A stretch of DNA of 64,000 nt. Origin: Rhizodiscina lignyota (taxonomy: Eukaryota; Ascomycota; Dothideomycetes; Aulographales; Rhizodiscinaceae). The stretch's first letter is position 1; the number at the start of each line of letters is the position of its first letter. The stretch covers positions 1,054,001-1,118,000 of the forward strand of contig ML978129.1 in assembly GCA_010015805.1 (NCBI GenBank). Direction: 5' to 3'. The notes beneath the pieces were generated by a model, which saw only the letters and a program-made list of their open reading frames with translations, had not been told where the DNA came from and did not search any database. The translations under genes were made by a program, and so were the position numbers. This document shows positions 50,766 through 63,986 of this stretch, one piece after another.

Positions 50766-52210
50766 TCAACCAGCCACCTTAACCGCCGCCTGACCTTCTC
50801 TTGTCCTTCCCAGCCCCTCCTTAGCGTAGAAGTCCATGGGGTACACGGCCTCCTTCCCAACCACCTTGCTCTCCTCCGTCCACCCAGCCTCTCTTACGCC
50901 CAGAGCGACGAGCGCCTCGTACGGACTTAACAGTGGTCGCGAAAATGCATAACCCCAATCAATGCTGAGTCTCGGACAGGCGATTTGCACCCAACACTCG
51001 ACGTCGCTCATCAGCGCCAGTTTGCCGGGGAAGATTTCTGACAAGAGTAGATTTATCCACGGGATACCCTTCTCGTCCAACAGCTTCTCTATCATAGCGA
51101 GGGTGTGGGGGTTCCCTTGTCGCCCTAATGAGCCCAAAATAAGTCCCCATTTCCGCGCCTTGCGTGCCGTCGAGATAGCCTGCGATCGCAAGTCATACAA
51201 TTCGTCGTGGTCGTACGATTCGCGCGTGAGACGTCTTGAGTAAGGGTCGTAGCGGTACGCTGGCAAATGCGGATTGTGTATCATTGCAGACTCGAGATGG
51301 AATCTCCCATCGCCAAGGTACAACAGCATGTCTGCTGCGCTCTCTACTCCGTCAGTACTGCGCGCAAGTTGCGGCGATGTACAGCCGAGTATCTCTCCCT
51401 TGCTGAGCGGTGCGATCTGCGGCACGATGACATTGAAGCCCGCGCTTCGCAGTTGTGGTGCAACACCATGGATCGTAGCATTAAACTGTATCGTCCCAAC
51501 TAACGCAACTGTCTTGCCAGATTGAAAATTCTCGGTTATAGTGGCAAGCAGGTGTGGCACGTCGATGCCGATGTCTACGAAGACGTACAGGGTCTTGATC
51601 TTTGTGACATCCACAGGTATGAGGCAGCTGTGAGCATAGTGCACCAACAGATCGCAGCCCAATGCACGCGCTGTGTAGTCGTCTATACAGCATGCGCCAT
51701 ACGTTACGTCGCCCATGATGAGCGTTTCTGTGCCGGGGCAGAAGCGAGTGAGAATGTCGGAGATGGTGGTCGCAAAGAGGAGGAGACCTTCGGGAAATTG
51801 TAGAGCAATTTTCTTAGATCCGGCAGTGCGTACTCGGTGGATAGTCTTGTGGAGCTCGAAGTTGTAGTTCGAGGGAAGGAGGGCGATGGCCGCGTTGATC
51901 TCTTCATCGTGGAGGATTTCGGGAGGTATGTTGTTGAGCGCTCTTGCGCCTCTGCGAGGTTGTGCAACTGTGGTCACACATTTAACGTTACTAAGAGGCT
52001 CTGATATACGCTTCAATATCAAAGCTTGCCTTGTATAGCTCCACTGTCCTCTATGTTGCCATTTGACGGTTTGGGCGATTCACCTGCAGCGGCGGCAGCA
52101 GCTCGACGGCCGACAAATCTCCTCTTCGGCTGCTTCGATTGTACATTTTCTTCTGCCTCAAGTTCACTTGGAGCTGATGTTAAATTCGTCGCTTCCCGAT
52201 CCTCCTCCAT
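50766..52210 (-). CDS. DPH1: Diphthamide biosynthesis protein 1 with a GC-AG intron
   Basis: Exons 52210..52030 and 51967..50766, total 1383 nt, 460 residues. The 62 nt intron starts with GC, not GT: caag|gcaagc and ends accacag. A GT donor would leave a stop codon in frame, so GC-AG is required. The protein opens with an Ala/Arg-rich leader, then [20 protein letters not shown] and [16 protein letters not shown]. The [4Fe-4S] cysteines are in [28 protein letters not shown] and [17 protein letters not shown]. Dph1, with Dph2, is a non-canonical radical-SAM enzyme that transfers 3-amino-3-carboxypropyl to His of elongation factor 2, the first step of diphthamide synthesis. It is complete. Confidence 0.94.
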
Positions 52211-56320: not shown

Positions 56321-58342
56321 TCACTGCAGACGGACACCAGCCTGTCGGTTCTTCTTTGCTCGGTCGCCCACAGCGCTGTTCATGTTCGTGCTGTTCTGGC
56401 TGGCATCCAGAATGCTCATAGCTTCCTTCCTCTTCTCTTCTTCGATCTTCTTCAGCCTCTTCTCTGTCTTCTGCTTGCCACTGCCTTTGCCATGGAACTG
56501 GTGAGATAGATGCTTGAATGCTTCCTTCTGGTTCATGCTTCGGCCGTAGTCATCCACATATTTGAGCTGAACATCCGGCTTGTACTCGCGGTTGAAGACC
56601 TCGACCATCTGTCGAGACTCGTTCTGATCACGCTGCACATTGACACGACGTGCGTACTCCTCTCGGTCACGCGCAGACATACGATCCAGCTTGCCACTTT
56701 GACGATCCCGTTCACGCTGTGCACGGGCTCGTTGCTCTGCTTCTGTTTCTCGCTTCTGCTTCTCTGCGAGGAATCGTTGGCGGTCGCGGAAGTTGATGCT
56801 CATGTCTCCGGACTCTGGTGTCTTGATGAGGCCTCGCTGTCTGAGCATCTTCAGCGTTGCTCCAATGCCACTGGTAAGAGTGGCCTCATCCTCCAAGCCA
56901 GTCGCAGTAACCTCAGCAGGTGTAGACACTTCACGTGAAATTCCTCTCGATTGTGATCTTTCCTCATCCACTTCGTTGTATGACTGCTCCATATCGACAT
57001 CCTCGTCATCGTCTGGACTCCGAGCTCCAGCACCAACAGACTCAACGCCGTTCAAAGGCAGAGCAGAACGAGGTCGGCGTCTCTCTGACGCTGTGGGCTT
57101 CTGCAGATTTGCGACGAACTCTGAGGTCTCATCGATCACGAGGCCAGGTTCCTCTTCCTCCTGCGCCTCTATGCTATCGACAACGCCAGGCGTTGTAACT
57201 TCTTCTTGTCGCAGCTCCCGTGCAATATCTTCCGGACGCATCTTCTTTCGCTTCTTAAGGGCGGCTCGTCGCTGCTTCGCAAGGTCGGCCTGCAGATCCT
57301 CATCGTCCACGAAATTGGTGTCATCGAAATTCCGTTTGATGCCTGAGGGTGCCGCAACCGTCATGTCTTTGCCATCAATTTCCATTTCTCCTTGTTGGTC
57401 ACCCATCTCTGCGCCAGCAAAGATATCCTCATCGTCAAACACTTTGCGCTTCGTCGACTTGGACTTCTTTTTCTTCGGCTTTTTGATCTTCATCTCCGAG
57501 GCATCCACGTAGTCGGAGATGGGCGCATCTTCCTTCAATATATCCAGTGAGATTGTAATGCCTTTCAGCTTCGCAGATGATGAGTCGACGTCCATCGCGG
57601 CTTCTCTGGTGCTTCCATGTCCGTCGAGGGTGAACCGCTGACGCTTCCTGCCATCAATCTCCTCATCATACTGCGCAAGAATGCCACGCGAGGTGTCATC
57701 ATCTTCAGCGTTCGGATCGTATACCGGCCTCTTCTTCTTCGATTCTAGTCGTTCTTCGAGCTTTTCGCGTTCGCGAAGATTGACGTTCTCCAATTCGTCC
57801 TCTTCAGAATCAGCGTCGACAGCTGCATCTTTGAGTATCAGAATTTGCTCGCCGGCCTCTTCATCGAATTGATTTAGCTCATGACCGACTCGAACACCGG
57901 CCAGATCGGCTGCTGTATATTCGGCTTGCCGTTCCCTCTCCGCTAGTTCCTGCTCGAGCTGCTCAAGCTTCCGCGCCTTCTCCAATTTTTTCTTGCTCTT
58001 ATTGTGTTGCATAAGCCATGCCTTTGTGTCCACCTCATCGTCATCATCGGCCAGCCCTTTGCCTTCAAGCGTTGCATTGCGTTGCGCTATATCTCGCGCC
58101 TTTTTTATCGCATCCTTTTGCGCCTGCCGCTTTGCCTTGGCCTCCTCTTCATCTCTCAACTTCTTCCAGTTGTCTGATGCCGCTGCCTCCCGTGTCTCGA
58201 GTGTGCTCCCAGGTTCCTCGTCAGATGCCTGGTCTTCTGCGTCTTTGAACACCGGTCCACTTGGAGCGCCTGGCACAGGCAAGGGCTTCATGCCCATTGC
58301 CAGGCGCACCTTGTTGACTTGCTCGACATCGAATTCTGGCAT
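56321..58342 (-). CDS. SNU66: U4/U6.U5 tri-snRNP protein Snu66 (SART1 family)
   Basis: 673 residues from the Met at 58342 (MPEFDVEQVNKVRLAMGMKP); the frame is open to 58543 but that 67-codon part is Ser/Pro-rich leader-like. The N-terminal VRLAMGMKPLPVPG resembles the Hub1-interaction region of Snu66. The body is highly charged, with coiled-coil stretches (KKKLEKARKLEQLEQELAER) and KKRPVYDPNAEDD. The C terminus carries the SART-1 block: LKYVDDYGRSMNQKEAFKHL, SHQFHGKGSGKQKTEKRLKK. Snu66 joins the tri-snRNP before spliceosome activation; in fungi and animals its Hub1 binding influences use of weak 5' splice sites. Intronless over this length. Confidence 0.9.
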   Translation of the reverse strand: MPEFDVEQVNKVRLAMGMKPLPVPGAPSGPVFKDAEDQASDEEPGSTLETREAAASDNWKKLRDEEEAKAKRQAQKDAIKKARDIAQRNATLEGKGLADDDDEVDTKAWLMQHNKSKKKLEKARKLEQLEQELAERERQAEYTAADLAGVRVGHELNQFDEEAGEQILILKDAAVDADSEEDELENVNLREREKLEERLESKKKRPVYDPNAEDDDTSRGILAQYDEEIDGRKRQRFTLDGHGSTREAAMDVDSSSAKLKGITISLDILKEDAPISDYVDASEMKIKKPKKKKSKSTKRKVFDDEDIFAGAEMGDQQGEMEIDGKDMTVAAPSGIKRNFDDTNFVDDEDLQADLAKQRRAALKKRKKMRPEDIARELRQEEVTTPGVVDSIEAQEEEEPGLVIDETSEFVANLQKPTASERRRPRSALPLNGVESVGAGARSPDDDEDVDMEQSYNEVDEERSQSRGISREVSTPAEVTATGLEDEATLTSGIGATLKMLRQRGLIKTPESGDMSINFRDRQRFLAEKQKRETEAEQRARAQRERDRQSGKLDRMSARDREEYARRVNVQRDQNESRQMVEVFNREYKPDVQLKYVDDYGRSMNQKEAFKHLSHQFHGKGSGKQKTEKRLKKIEEEKRKEAMSILDASQNSTNMNSAVGDRAKKNRQAGVRLQ

Positions 58343-59055
58343 TGTGGCAGCAAGTGAAATCGGCGAATGAGGGTGAGGTAGAGGGGAAGACGGGTATTGT
58401 GAAGCTGAGGTTGATGAGGCAAGTTTCGGCAGGTGAGAGCTAGCAGCGGAACCGGAATTGTCCGATTCTCTGGCACGAAATCTTGGCGCGGCCCATATAA
58501 ATTTTCTATCGACGAACTTTGCGCCTTCTTCTTTACCAAACAACAGATCTGTGTTCAGAAGTCCTGCCTGTTCTCTGAGCAGTGTGGTTGCATTTCTGGA
58601 CAGCTCGACCGTGTTATGGAGCCATCTTGCACCACCATGATGTCAATCTTCCGGTTGACAGATCTTAGAACAATCGGCGCCTGTTGGCCTGAGTTCCTCT
58701 GGGTCTAACCTGGTGTTGAGCTCGGTTGATGGGACTGCTGAGGGCGTCATATTCCGCATCCCTTTGCTGATTTTTGGGCCGTCGGCTCGTGAAGTTGGGG
58801 AAAAACCATGACTTGCCTACAGACATGCACTTTTATATATACTGAAAAGACGGCAGACGATTCAATTGTAATACTCTCATTTATGCTGTCATACAATTGG
58901 GACAGAACATGACCCGGCTTTGTGACCGAGCCAGAGAGCCAGAATGTCGCTGGTAAAGCGTTCCTAGCGACAGCATCTCTGATACACTTCGTTGGCGGGC
59001 GTTGAGTAGCTAGCAATAGACACACTTCATGTTGAATTGTCTTGCAGTGTCTTCT
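58343..59055. other. SNU66 upstream region
   Basis: About 710 bp between the SNU66 start and the methyltransferase stop, both on the minus strand. The stretch 58343-58543 is open in frame with SNU66. Nothing else recognised. Confidence 0.45.
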
Positions 59056-59984
59056 TCATTCCTTCTTCGTCAATGTACCGACAATGAATGGCACACACGC
59101 CCATGAATTCACCCATTCCAGGTCGACCTTTGCCCAGCCGCCATCTTGCTTTGCTGCATTCAGCAGCATGCTCTTCGTATCCCGGTTTAGCTGGCATCCA
59201 CCCATTAAATATTTCCAGCCACCAACATGTTGCCAGAAAAACTGCATCACACGTCCAATGACGTTGCCCTGAGGTTGTGGCCAAGGATTTACTACGTGCT
59301 CGCTCACGATGAACCGACCGCCAGGCTTCAGTGCCTTGTACAGTCCATTGACAGTCTCCTCAGGTTGTGGAACACCGCAGATGACACGGATCAGACAGAT
59401 ATCATCGAAGATACCCGCACTACCGCCGGACATTTGTCCCATCAAGCCCGCCTTTGCCAATGCTGGGACAAGACTCTCCGGCTCGGCGCCACAAGCTAGA
59501 GGATGAAACTTGTCTCCAAATCCTAACTTCTTTGCTGTCTCTCTAAGCAGAGGGTGCATATCTGTAGCCGGTTCCACACCCCAGAGCTCAGTTATCTGAC
59601 CATCGTTGAAGTTGAAGCGGTGGAGTTGCTCGCCGGATCCAGGCCCGATGTCTAGCACTCTTCCCCGCGCAAGACCAATGAGTGCAACGGTCTTTCCAGG
59701 CATTTCTGCTGACATTGCCCTCCCCTTTGCGAGCCATAGTTTCGAGAAGGCACGGTGCCTCAGAGTTTGGAGGTCTTTAGGATACGGTTGTTCGATGGGA
59801 AGGAGAACGAGTGTAAGTATCCAATCTGTGAAAAATTGTTAGCATATGTGAGCCCCATCCTGTCAATTGACATGGAACCCTTACAGTAGACCGCAGCACT
59901 GAGTAGGAAGAACGGCCCGATCCAGGCCAGTGCCCTTTCTTTTACGGTGGGGTTAACTGGTGGTTTCAAGGTGGCCGCCTCCAT
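59056..59984 (-). CDS. Membrane-anchored SAM-dependent methyltransferase (METTL7-like)
   Basis: Exons 59984..59885 and 59825..59056 with a 59 nt intron (gtaagg donor, tttcacag acceptor, phase 1) give 289 residues. A hydrophobic N-terminal stretch (about 20-45, WIGPFFLLSAAVYYWILTLV) across the splice junction anchors it to a membrane. The Rossmann methyltransferase fold follows: motif I VLDIGPGSGEQLHRF, acidic loop ELWGVEPATDM, motif IV IFDDICLIRVICGVP, post-motif ALKPGGRFIVSEHVVNPWP. This matches the class of METTL7-type enzymes, which in animals are thiol methyltransferases at ER and lipid droplets. The fungal substrate is unknown. The unspliced second exon would lack the anchor. Confidence 0.85.
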
Positions 59985-60573: not shown

Positions 60574-62196
60574 CTAGAAATGGGTCGGCTCTCCGTCCCT
60601 TTCCAATACGTCCAACCATGTCTTTACCTTGTTCAGCGAGAGCTCGCTCTCACAGTGGGCAACTGCAGCTTCGAATCCTGCCTTTGTTTGCTCGATCTTA
60701 TACGCTTCGATCCAAGCTGGCTCGAGCTGCTCCATTTCCGCAAGCCAGAGTTTCCTTAGCTGCGTTTCTTCGTAATGCCTCAAGTGCTCCCAGTACAATG
60801 TCGTCACTTCGACGCGCTCACAATGTGCGTATGTCTCCTCATCTGGCTTGTCCGCTCGATCAACATCATTGATGAATTTTGGAATCCGCACCGCGGCCCA
60901 ATATGGAACTGCTGAGCTGAATTCCCAGTCAATGACGGCTTTGAGATTTCCTTCGCCATCGACAAGGATGTTAGCTGCGCTGAGGTCGCTGTGAACAACA
61001 ACAGTACAGACAGAAACTTGGTCATTCGGGAAGACCATGGGCAAATTCAGGCGAAGTCTTTCAATGGCATGCAATATCTTGTTCCCGAGCTTCAAGTCTG
61101 GGTCGTCTTCTTCTTCCGCCATCCATCTTCGTGTCTCGATCTCGCTCAGCTGTAGTCTCGCAAGAAGCCACTCTGAAATACGATTAAATGGCTCGCGATG
61201 TACCTCTTGGTGAATATTGCGGTGCCAGAAGAAGTGTCTGTCAACGGTCCTGCCCAGGAACAAAGCACTAGTCGACTGCTGGACTTTCGACGATACGGAG
61301 ATAACAGTCTGTGTGTCGATATCGCGCCTTGGCTCTTTCTTTGGGCATGCATTACCTCCATGATTGCCATTGTGCTCCTGCATGGTCCTTGATTCGCTTC
61401 TTTGGTTATCATTCCTTTTTCCGATGCTTAGCTTCCCATCAATAATGACAGTCTCGTCAAAGGTGAAGTCTCCTTCGATAGAAAGTTTTCCTTGAATGGC
61501 AGGGCCGCCATCGACAATGACCTTCCCGTCAATGGAGAGCATCCCATCAATAGTCCCCTTTTCGAATGTGGTCTTCCCTCGTATGGCCAGCGTTCCCCGT
61601 TCCGTAGTGTCCTGCACGATAGGTTCTATTTTTGTCACCACCTCATTCTGAGCCACTAACGTTGAATCTTCCGGAGCGGAGTCCCCGAGAAAGAGGCTGC
61701 CAATCGCATCGAATCTGACGGCGTAGAGTTGTGCGGCGTATAATGCTAATTGTTTCACCAACTTCTCTTTCGTACTCCACGGTATTGTCCACCACACGTC
61801 ATATAGCGGCTTTCCCGGTATGAATTCCATGAGTATCCACTCAAATCCAAGTTCGTTGTCGGCAGAGGCATCATACGCAACCACTCGTGGTACAGGACAT
61901 TTAGAGTTGCGCCGAGCGAATTCCATCGTAGCAATGCCGCTTAAGGTCTTGTGCTTCGGGTCGACTGGGAGAGCCACGCGCATCATGAAGGTTCCCTGAG
62001 CGCTTATAACCTTGTAAAGCTTGTTGAAGCCGCCTTCGCTGTACAACTCAACCTGACATTCCGACTCAGGCAGCGCAAGTGTGCGCCGGCAGATTGCTCG
62101 AATTGTCGAAATATCAGTTTCTTCTGACCAATTCGGCTCGTAATGCAAAAGTCCCTCTTCCCACACAAGGCCGCGCTGAGGTATGATTGTCGCCAT
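60574..62196 (-). CDS. APH-fold kinase with internal beta-solenoid-like repeat insertion
   Basis: A single-exon 540-residue protein of the fungal aminoglycoside-phosphotransferase-like family. GGFNKLYKVISAQGTFMMRV forms the nucleotide-binding lobe and FEWILMEFIPGKPLYDVW the hinge. VVVHSDLSAANILVDGEGNL carries the catalytic loop (His402, Asp404, Asn409), and VIDWEFSS the metal Asp (423). Residues 200-260, in the loop between SLFLGDSAP and LFLGRTVDRHFFWHRNIH, contain four units of 17-18 residues of the pattern IxGxLSIxGKxxx. A second linker (260-310) is polar. Family members are many in moulds and their substrates (choline, sugars or small alcohols) unknown. The catalytic residues are present. 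It is divergent from the small gene at 62583. Confidence 0.85.
   Translation of the reverse strand: MATIIPQRGLVWEEGLLHYEPNWSEETDISTIRAICRRTLALPESECQVELYSEGGFNKLYKVISAQGTFMMRVALPVDPKHKTLSGIATMEFARRNSKCPVPRVVAYDASADNELGFEWILMEFIPGKPLYDVWWTIPWSTKEKLVKQLALYAAQLYAVRFDAIGSLFLGDSAPEDSTLVAQNEVVTKIEPIVQDTTERGTLAIRGKTTFEKGTIDGMLSIDGKVIVDGGPAIQGKLSIEGDFTFDETVIIDGKLSIGKRNDNQRSESRTMQEHNGNHGGNACPKKEPRRDIDTQTVISVSSKVQQSTSALFLGRTVDRHFFWHRNIHQEVHREPFNRISEWLLARLQLSEIETRRWMAEEEDDPDLKLGNKILHAIERLRLNLPMVFPNDQVSVCTVVVHSDLSAANILVDGEGNLKAVIDWEFSSAVPYWAAVRIPKFINDVDRADKPDEETYAHCERVEVTTLYWEHLRHYEETQLRKLWLAEMEQLEPAWIEAYKIEQTKAGFEAAVAHCESELSLNKVKTWLDVLERDGEPTHF
61417..61599 (-). repeat. In-frame 54 bp repeats inside the APH-fold kinase
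   Basis: Coding-strand units of 51-54 bp give the peptides RGTLAIRGKTTFEKGT, IDGMLSIDGKVIVDGGPA, IQGKLSIEGDFTFDETVI and IDGKLSIGK. The Gly, Leu/Ile and Gly-Lys positions keep a constant register over about 61 residues. At DNA level the copies have diverged, so they are not a recent expansion. Confidence 0.85.
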
Positions 62197-63311: not shown

Positions 63312-63986
63312 CTACCTCCTGATAGCACGCTGGTAGAAGGCAAGCTCTTCGCCCTCCAGGACATAACCATCGCAACGGCCGCTCTGTCCAGGCCTCGACG
63401 AGACCACCGCATATAGACGACCTGCCTCGAACTGTCTCTCAAGCGCGTTCTCAACCTTGCCGTGAGCCGTCATTCTCGCCGCCTGCTTCTTCTCGACGCT
63501 CTTGCTCTTCTTCGTCTCCTCAGTCGTCTCACCGGCCTTCTGCTGCCTCTTCCTGCCCAGGTTTGCGCCGTAGTGTGCCTCGTACCACTGCCTGAAGGGT
63601 GCCGCGTCGATCTGGACCACAGCGCTTCTCGTCAAGGTGTTTGTGCGCACGAGTTCGTTGTTGGAAGGATGGAAGACGACACCGATGACACGCGTCTTGC
63701 GGGAGACGCTCTCAGATCCCCATGAGAAGTTGCCGGAGTCGAGGCGAAGGGCACGGAACTTGCGGTTGCCGCCACGGGTGCGGACAAGATGGATGCGCTT
63801 TGCGCCGATACGAGTGTTGGCCGGCTGGCGACCTTTCTCGAAAGCTCTGTATCATGCCATGTCAGAACACGGCAAGGGCAGAAGCGATCGGGTTACGAGA
63901 TATGAGTGGGTGCATACCTCTTCTTGCGATAGTGAGCTCGCTTAGCACCAGAGGCGGACCTCTTATGGCGCGAGTCACGAGAGATA
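63312..63986 (-). CDS. RPS8: 40S ribosomal protein S8 (eS8), 5' exon outside window
   Basis: Exons 63986..63918 and 63846..63312 are inside; the first exon, expected to end ATG GG, lies beyond base 64000, since 63987-64000 is intron ending ttaacag. The 71 nt second intron has a gtatgc donor. The peptide reads ISRDSRHKRSASGAKRAHYR, KKRAFEKGRQPANTRIGAKR, GGNRKFRALRLDSGNFSWGS, RVIGVVFHPSNNELVRTNTL and VVQIDAAPFRQWYEAHYG. It ends RCDGYVLEGEELAFYQRAIR, all typical of eukaryotic eS8, a small-subunit protein near the 18S rRNA. An intron directly after the second codon is common in ribosomal protein genes. About 200 of the expected residues are present. Confidence 0.95.

Follow-up and report, generated by a model that had tools for sequence, protein, structure and literature searches.

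A regular repeat of beta-solenoid-like pattern within a fungal kinase of the APH family

Kinases of the APH family usually carry an ATP-contacting lysine on strand three of the N-lobe, and to our knowledge the substrates of the fungal APH-like kinases are mostly unknown. The kinase of L-fucokinase/GDP-fucose pyrophosphorylase (FKP) has the GHMP fold, which is other than that of APH, and in HET-s the signalling amyloid lies at the C-terminus. FKP unites a kinase and a three-turn beta-helix in one chain, and this helix is reported to have no direct part in oligomer formation (PMC11982464). HET-s is a fungal beta-solenoid amyloid with two 21-residue repeats (PMC4518210, PMC4055769), and PMC12978214 describes ice-nucleating proteins of fungi that are beta-solenoids and probably came from bacteria. 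Bactofilins, whose right-handed triangular beta-helix is some 110 residues long, are counted among the polymer-forming proteins typically absent from eukaryotes; since UniProt entries of non-bacterial origin were left out of that study, non-bacterial bactofilin entries must exist (PMC12448750). For Myxococcus xanthus, PMC4372379 gives four bactofilins with six repeats of 16–18 residues each. We found nothing on a bactofilin in Ascomycota in the open-access literature. The FunK1 kinases are treated in PMC6001611, and the protein considered here falls outside FunK1 by Pfam. Judged by titles and the starts of abstracts, the papers listed from the open-access literature include no kinase of a build similar to the one presented here, in agreement with the earlier note on this DNA, which knew of none.

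Within the window, that is, the whole 64,000-nucleotide stretch of DNA analysed, one open frame encodes a protein that we take to belong to the fungal branch of the APH family (Table 1). The whole protein gave six Pfam matches at E up to 1; the APH phosphotransferase profile PF01636 (E 4.9e-18) passed its curated cut-off, with 66.2 bits against 23.2, and no FunK1 fungal protein kinase profile was among the six. In NCBIfam the APH(3') model matched the whole protein at E 1.1e-6, with 28.3 bits against a cut-off of 205. The protein carries the HxDxxxxN loop and the subsequent aspartate by which membership of the APH family is judged (H402, D404, N409 and D423, as in the bacterial relatives L001 and L002). 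These residues belong to the catalytic loop and, in the case of the aspartate at 423, to the metal-binding motif IDWE. From its motifs the enzyme looks active, with one reservation, namely R73, which stands where lysine is expected in the APH family (a placement made by eye where the alignment is unreliable).

Table 1. Features of the kinase gene, in positions of the window
Feature	Positions	Strand	Basis
Kinase open reading frame with inserted repeat, 540 aa	60574..62196	-	ATG start, open frame; PF01636 match
Kinase part 1, residues 1-175	61672..62196	-	PF01636 match to residues 53-184; edge 175 by eye
Insert lead, 25 residues, 176-200	61597..61671	-	Whole-protein model (low confidence) has neither helix nor strand long enough to report
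Repeat, residues 201-260, 3.3 units of 17-18 residues, 6-residue sub-period	61417..61596	-	Shuffles, register; predicted strands
Insert tail, 51 residues, 261-311, polar, probably disordered	61264..61416	-	Composition; whole-protein model (low confidence) has neither helix nor strand
Kinase part 2, residues 312-540: LFLGRTVDRHFFW segment, helical region, catalytic loop	60577..61263	-	PF01636 resumes at residue 333
Catalytic loop HSDLSAAN, residues 402-409	60970..60993	-	H402, D404, N409 common to bacterial relatives L001 and L002
IDWE, residues 422-425	60922..60933	-	Common to bacterial relatives L001 and L002
Hypothetical GT..TAG pair that brackets the repeat and keeps the frame, CDS nt 537-929, 393 nt	61268..61660	-	Possible exitron

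The two bacterial relatives were found among 79 pattern matches to the catalytic-loop segment in genome contigs, and because BLASTP gave significance over 29 residues only, they say little about the loop. A full-length alignment (A1) was poor and was excluded from the argument. The whole protein and its insert had no relatives in viral contigs, where a catalytic-loop alignment was tried as well, or in plasmids, and the insert had none in phages. Against PDB sequences, the best E values were 0.17 for the whole protein (an APH-like protein), 2.2 for the insert and 0.32 for the last 241 residues. A tblastn search of the window returned no second copy, the best other match having E 9.0 for the insert and 0.19 for the whole protein.

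The gene is located among conserved housekeeping genes of a presumed filamentous ascomycete. Pfam identifies a ribosomal protein S8e fragment upstream of it (63315-63650, minus strand, E 1.4e-14), a SART-1 family gene downstream (56324-58642, minus strand, E 4.3e-184) and a diphthamide synthesis protein (50769-52079, minus strand, E 5.4e-115), while a methyltransferase-domain frame adjoins the kinase on the same strand (59059-59838, minus; PF13489, E 5.9e-10). Antisense to SART-1 runs a 269-residue stop-free frame (56703-57512, plus strand), most likely an effect of the codon bias of SART-1.

Scanning the two ends of the protein separately delimits the insert. In residues 1-200, residues 53-184 match PF01636 profile positions 6-134, and in the last 241 residues, residues 333-428 match positions 113-198. 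The profile is exhausted to about 113–134 before the insert and resumes at 113 (residue 333), so that no profile columns fall to the insert, and nothing in the APH profile corresponds to some 135 residues (approximately 176-311, both edges being judged by eye). Residues 312-332 are also outside its coverage. The part that precedes the insert is presumably the N-lobe with the first helix of the C-lobe, and for the tail of the insert Pfam gave nothing with an E value up to 1. The earlier note had proposed an APH-fold kinase interrupted by four regular units of 17–18 residues at 200-260. The PF01636 match over its cut-off and the intact catalytic motifs bear out the kinase, and the interruption is likewise borne out, by a segment larger than the one claimed; the regular repeat holds at 201-260, but it numbers 3.3 units, the last of them partial.

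In register, the units read TLAIRGKTTFE-KGTIDG, MLSIDGKVIVDGGPAIQG, KLSIEGDFTFDETVIIDG and KLSIG. They start with LAIRG, LSIDG, LSIEG and LSIG, and the L[AS]I motif recurs at 203, 220, 238 and 256, that is, at spacings of 17, 18 and 18. At an offset of 18 residues, 13 positions are identical, a value that shuffling of residues 201-261 did not attain once in 20,000 trials, while the best identity and the best substitution score at any offset from 5 to 30 were reached by 34 and 7 of 20,000 such shuffles, respectively. The ten 61-residue segments of the protein that rank highest by repeat substitution score all overlap this region. These data confirm that the repeat is real and far above chance. 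Within the 18 residues there is a further 6-residue sub-period, which was absent from the earlier note: six of the 11 glycines of residues 201-260 are at 218, 224, 230, 236, 242 and 254, with large hydrophobic residues mostly two positions to either side. Over residues 214-260, a range picked after the pattern had been seen, none of 100,000 shuffles attained this period-6 placement of glycine and large hydrophobic residues; when odd and even positions were shuffled separately so as to preserve strand alternation, 16 of 100,000 did. A 6-residue period is that of the hexapeptide repeats of left-handed beta-helices. No hexapeptide-repeat profile matched the whole protein or the insert segments at E up to 1 in Pfam, and in NCBIfam an acyl-ACP-UDP-GlcNAc acyltransferase model matched weakly (E 0.098, 11.7 bits against 226).

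The units resemble one another in amino acids and not in codons. TRF (minimum score 30) detected no tandem DNA repeat in the repeat region, where a DNA-level search gave only matches of 12 and 15 nt. The in-register residue pairs, which comprise all pairs of units and so are not independent, share the amino acid in 33 of 70 cases, and nine of those 33 also share the codon, against 10.5 expected from codon usage; no two of the four leucines in the LxI starts share a codon. Nucleotide identity in register is 0.67, 0.64 and 0.33 at codon positions 1, 2 and 3, compared with about 0.24 at all three for pairs at offset 18 in the rest of the gene, and GC3 is 0.53 in the repeat against 0.57 and 0.58 in the kinase parts. 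Since the likeness is one of amino acids and not of codons, the pattern is either old or held at the protein level, and the codon and nucleotide evidence together indicate that the repeat is no recent product of slippage and behaves as coding sequence. The codon evidence also favours use of the segment as protein in at least some transcripts.

That last qualification touches on the gene model. If the segment were an exitron or a missed intron, splicing would yield a kinase of ordinary length and retention the longer form, and GTTAGT at CDS nt 537 (the only GTNNG[TCA] site in nt 482-960) does bracket the repeat together with a frame-keeping TAG at nt 929. However, 19 of the 35 GT-YAG pairs examined around the repeat keep the frame, so that such a pair is expected by chance. 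CDS nt 451-1020 hold no GTRNG 5' site and no CTRAY branch site, and none of the eight looser YTNAY sites in that range falls between nt 756 and 929. As the codon evidence in addition speaks for a repeat maintained as protein, we regard splicing of this segment as quite improbable; it is compatible with our main reading of the protein and does not exclude it.

A possible origin of the repeat is the bactofilin family, whose periodicity the earlier note had seen in it. The bactofilin profile PF04519 matched two 82-residue segments (residues 183-264, E 0.0017, 19.0 bits; residues 185-266, E 0.0015, 19.2 bits) below its cut-off of 27.9 bits, and it matched the 62-residue core of the insert at E 0.0033 and the whole protein at E 0.43. 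The profile search of the insert alone that the earlier note had suggested thus did return bactofilin, in the 82-residue segments and the core, and missed the cut-off. Residues 185-266 read in reverse scored higher than the real segment (E 7.9e-5, 23.3 bits against 19.2), and the reversed segment also matched FapA, which Pfam names as a solenoid family, and MinC_C, another solenoid family, while the real insert matched bactofilin among solenoid families. When shuffling kept only the places of hydrophobic residues and glycine, three of four sequences still matched bactofilin (E 0.0048–0.024, weaker than the real one) and the fourth had no match; the two unit permutations and the three plain shuffles all failed to match it.

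A bactofilin profile of our own gave a similar picture. It was built from 33 bacterial loci, less one (L021) without a usable frame. With these 32 frames, the score was 12.8 bits for the real 82-residue insert and 12.3 for the reversed one. Of 3000 shuffles of each kind, 485 pattern-keeping, 371 unit-permuted and 0 plain ones reached the real score; switching off the composition correction gave scores of 15.3 and 13.3 bits and counts of 328, 224 and 0 of 3000 in the same order. One locus (L011) has two hxGxh motifs against 7–10 in the other 31 frames and is therefore probably read in the wrong frame. Once it had been removed, the real insert scored 12.2 bits and the reverse 13.8, and 678 of 3000 pattern-keeping, 494 of 3000 unit-permuted and 1 of 3000 plain shuffles reached the real score. 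The insert has five hxGxh motifs at spacings of 6 and 12, and the 32 bactofilin frames have them mainly at 4, 6, 11–12, 17–18 and 20, with 4 the commonest.

The reversed and pattern-keeping controls indicate that the bactofilin likeness is one of pattern and not of descent. The pattern is of the kind recognised by beta-solenoid profiles, as far as such matches go, and to that extent the periodicity claimed earlier stands; the link to bactofilins themselves falls short, with a score below the cut-off and a reverse that does better in Pfam. Acquisition of a true bactofilin domain, for example from a bacterium, and its insertion into the kinase would fit the Pfam E values for the 82-residue segments and the core, the near absence of plain shuffles at the real score (0 and 1 of 3000 with 32 and 31 frames) and the slight lead of the real insert over its reverse with 32 frames. 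Against it stand the E value of 0.43 for the whole protein and the sub-cut-off scores of the segments, the higher reverse both in Pfam and with 31 frames, and the 678 pattern-keeping shuffles. The repeat, moreover, offers about 60 residues to a 98-position profile and lacks the 4-residue motif spacing, the insert found no match in plasmids or phages, and GC3 in the repeat (0.53) is set against 0.57–0.58 in the kinase parts. Among 398 bacterial genomes, 23 matched the insert at E up to 0.1, the best at 6.4e-4 per genome, which is about the chance level for that number of genomes and belongs to a frame unlike bactofilin by eye; in PHROGs the best E for the insert was 0.036. We consider acquisition highly improbable, and bactofilin descent has been set aside as unproven.

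Of ten bacterial loci matching the insert, the three that were inspected look by eye like a tail-spike-like protein, a repeat protein of autotransporter type and an acidic frame. The autotransporter-like bacterial protein (L037, 220-2496, plus strand, E 0.0018 per genome; assigned by eye) has long glycine- and valine-rich repeat runs.

Searches of PDB sequences, plasmids, phages, viral contigs and the 398 bacterial genomes gave no homologue of known fold for the repeat, and AlphaFold2 was run from the single sequence, with no alignment, on residues 189-267 and on the whole protein. In the shorter run, four strands were predicted at 203-211, 214-228, 233-246 and 250-259, with block means of pLDDT of 79–81 for residues 209-258 and 61 for 199-208. 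The mean pLDDT of the five insert models ranged from 68.8 to 51.5, which shows that the prediction had not converged. The whole-protein run, which the earlier note had named as a check, placed the strand limits within one residue of these (the third strand at 234-246) and, like the shorter run, made the repeat entirely beta; the model as such is poor, with block means of 36–43 in the repeat, and its mean pLDDT of 35.7 is too low to place the insert on the kinase. Foldseek with the insert model gave nothing at E up to 0.001 in PDB or BFVD, and nothing under E 0.07 in BFVD. The best 50 of 600 PDB matches began at E 0.15, were mostly of cyclic-nucleotide-binding, cupin and nucleoplasmin type, and included no beta-helix by title.

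Predicted strands of 9–15 residues with a turn about every 18 residues look more like an antiparallel meander than a solenoid. Each 18-residue unit would then be one long bent strand plus a turn, and the four strands a small sheet or roll on the kinase. Both AlphaFold2 runs have the four strands, with turns near 212-213, 229-233 and 247-249, and the best Foldseek matches, none of them significant, are, among the best 50 of 600, mostly what we take from their titles to be antiparallel beta-rolls. Because both runs lacked an alignment, the meander has to be weighed seriously against the solenoid. Its own support comes from single-sequence models, and it would need another cause for the 6-residue register across the turns and for the identity at offset 18. 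We think it rather unlikely. The solenoid is favoured because the 6-residue register runs across the supposed turns and because like residues fall in columns at the offset of 18.

We therefore prefer, though tentatively, to read the protein as an APH-fold kinase with an extra surface domain, a short beta-solenoid repeat that serves docking or self-association. Both the solenoid fold and its placement on the kinase are what we infer. Residues 201-260 would form a three-sided beta-solenoid of about 3.3 rungs with six residues per side, its hydrophobic residues pointing inward, its glycines near the corners and like residues stacked 18 apart. This domain would sit in the loop between the first C-lobe helix and the helical substrate region of a small-molecule kinase, and the leads at 176-200 and 261-311, if flexible, could hold it away from the kinase. 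The role is our guess: the uncapped ends of a solenoid may offer a face for docking or self-association rather than for catalysis.

A short, regular, glycine-rich and beta-prone repeat between polar linkers could also be an aggregation-prone or amyloid-type motif, or be disordered until it meets a partner, with a function like that of HET-s in fungal amyloid signalling. HET-s does provide the precedent of a fungal beta-solenoid amyloid (PMC4518210, PMC4055769), but its repeats are unlike the present ones in length, number and sequence, no receptor-type gene appeared in the seven window frames scanned with Pfam (one of which overlaps the kinase), and the AlphaFold2 confidence for the repeat folded alone is fair. 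An amyloid-type or partner-dependent motif accordingly appears improbable to us. More speculative still is a small-molecule kinase whose activity is controlled by clustering, in filaments or defined oligomers that form through a solenoid evolved within its substrate-side loop and without descent from bactofilins; we rate this extension of the docking or self-association idea as a long shot.

If the solenoid domain is as we propose, the gene would be an example of a beta-repeat domain that arose inside an enzyme loop and was maintained by selection at the protein level, our searches having given no sign of descent from a known solenoid family, and it would provide a handle on the fungal APH-like kinases.

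Set beside the described systems, the protein resembles the APH family (PF01636) in its profile match, which falls in two stretches, and in its HxDxxxxN and IDWE motifs; it differs in the approximately 135 residues with a beta-repeat between those stretches and, as placed by eye, in R73 at the site of the usual lysine. With HET-s it would have in common short beta-solenoid repeats in a fungus, but PMC4518210 gives two 21-residue repeats, against 3.3 units of 17–18 here. The hxGxh motifs and 17–18-residue units of the insert recall bactofilins, from which it is set apart by its length of about 60 residues against about 100 (98 profile positions) and by the missing 4-residue spacing that is commonest there. 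FKP would share with the present protein a kinase and a short beta-helix in one chain, whereas the helix of FKP belongs to the pyrophosphorylase half and does not lie within the kinase (PMC11982464).
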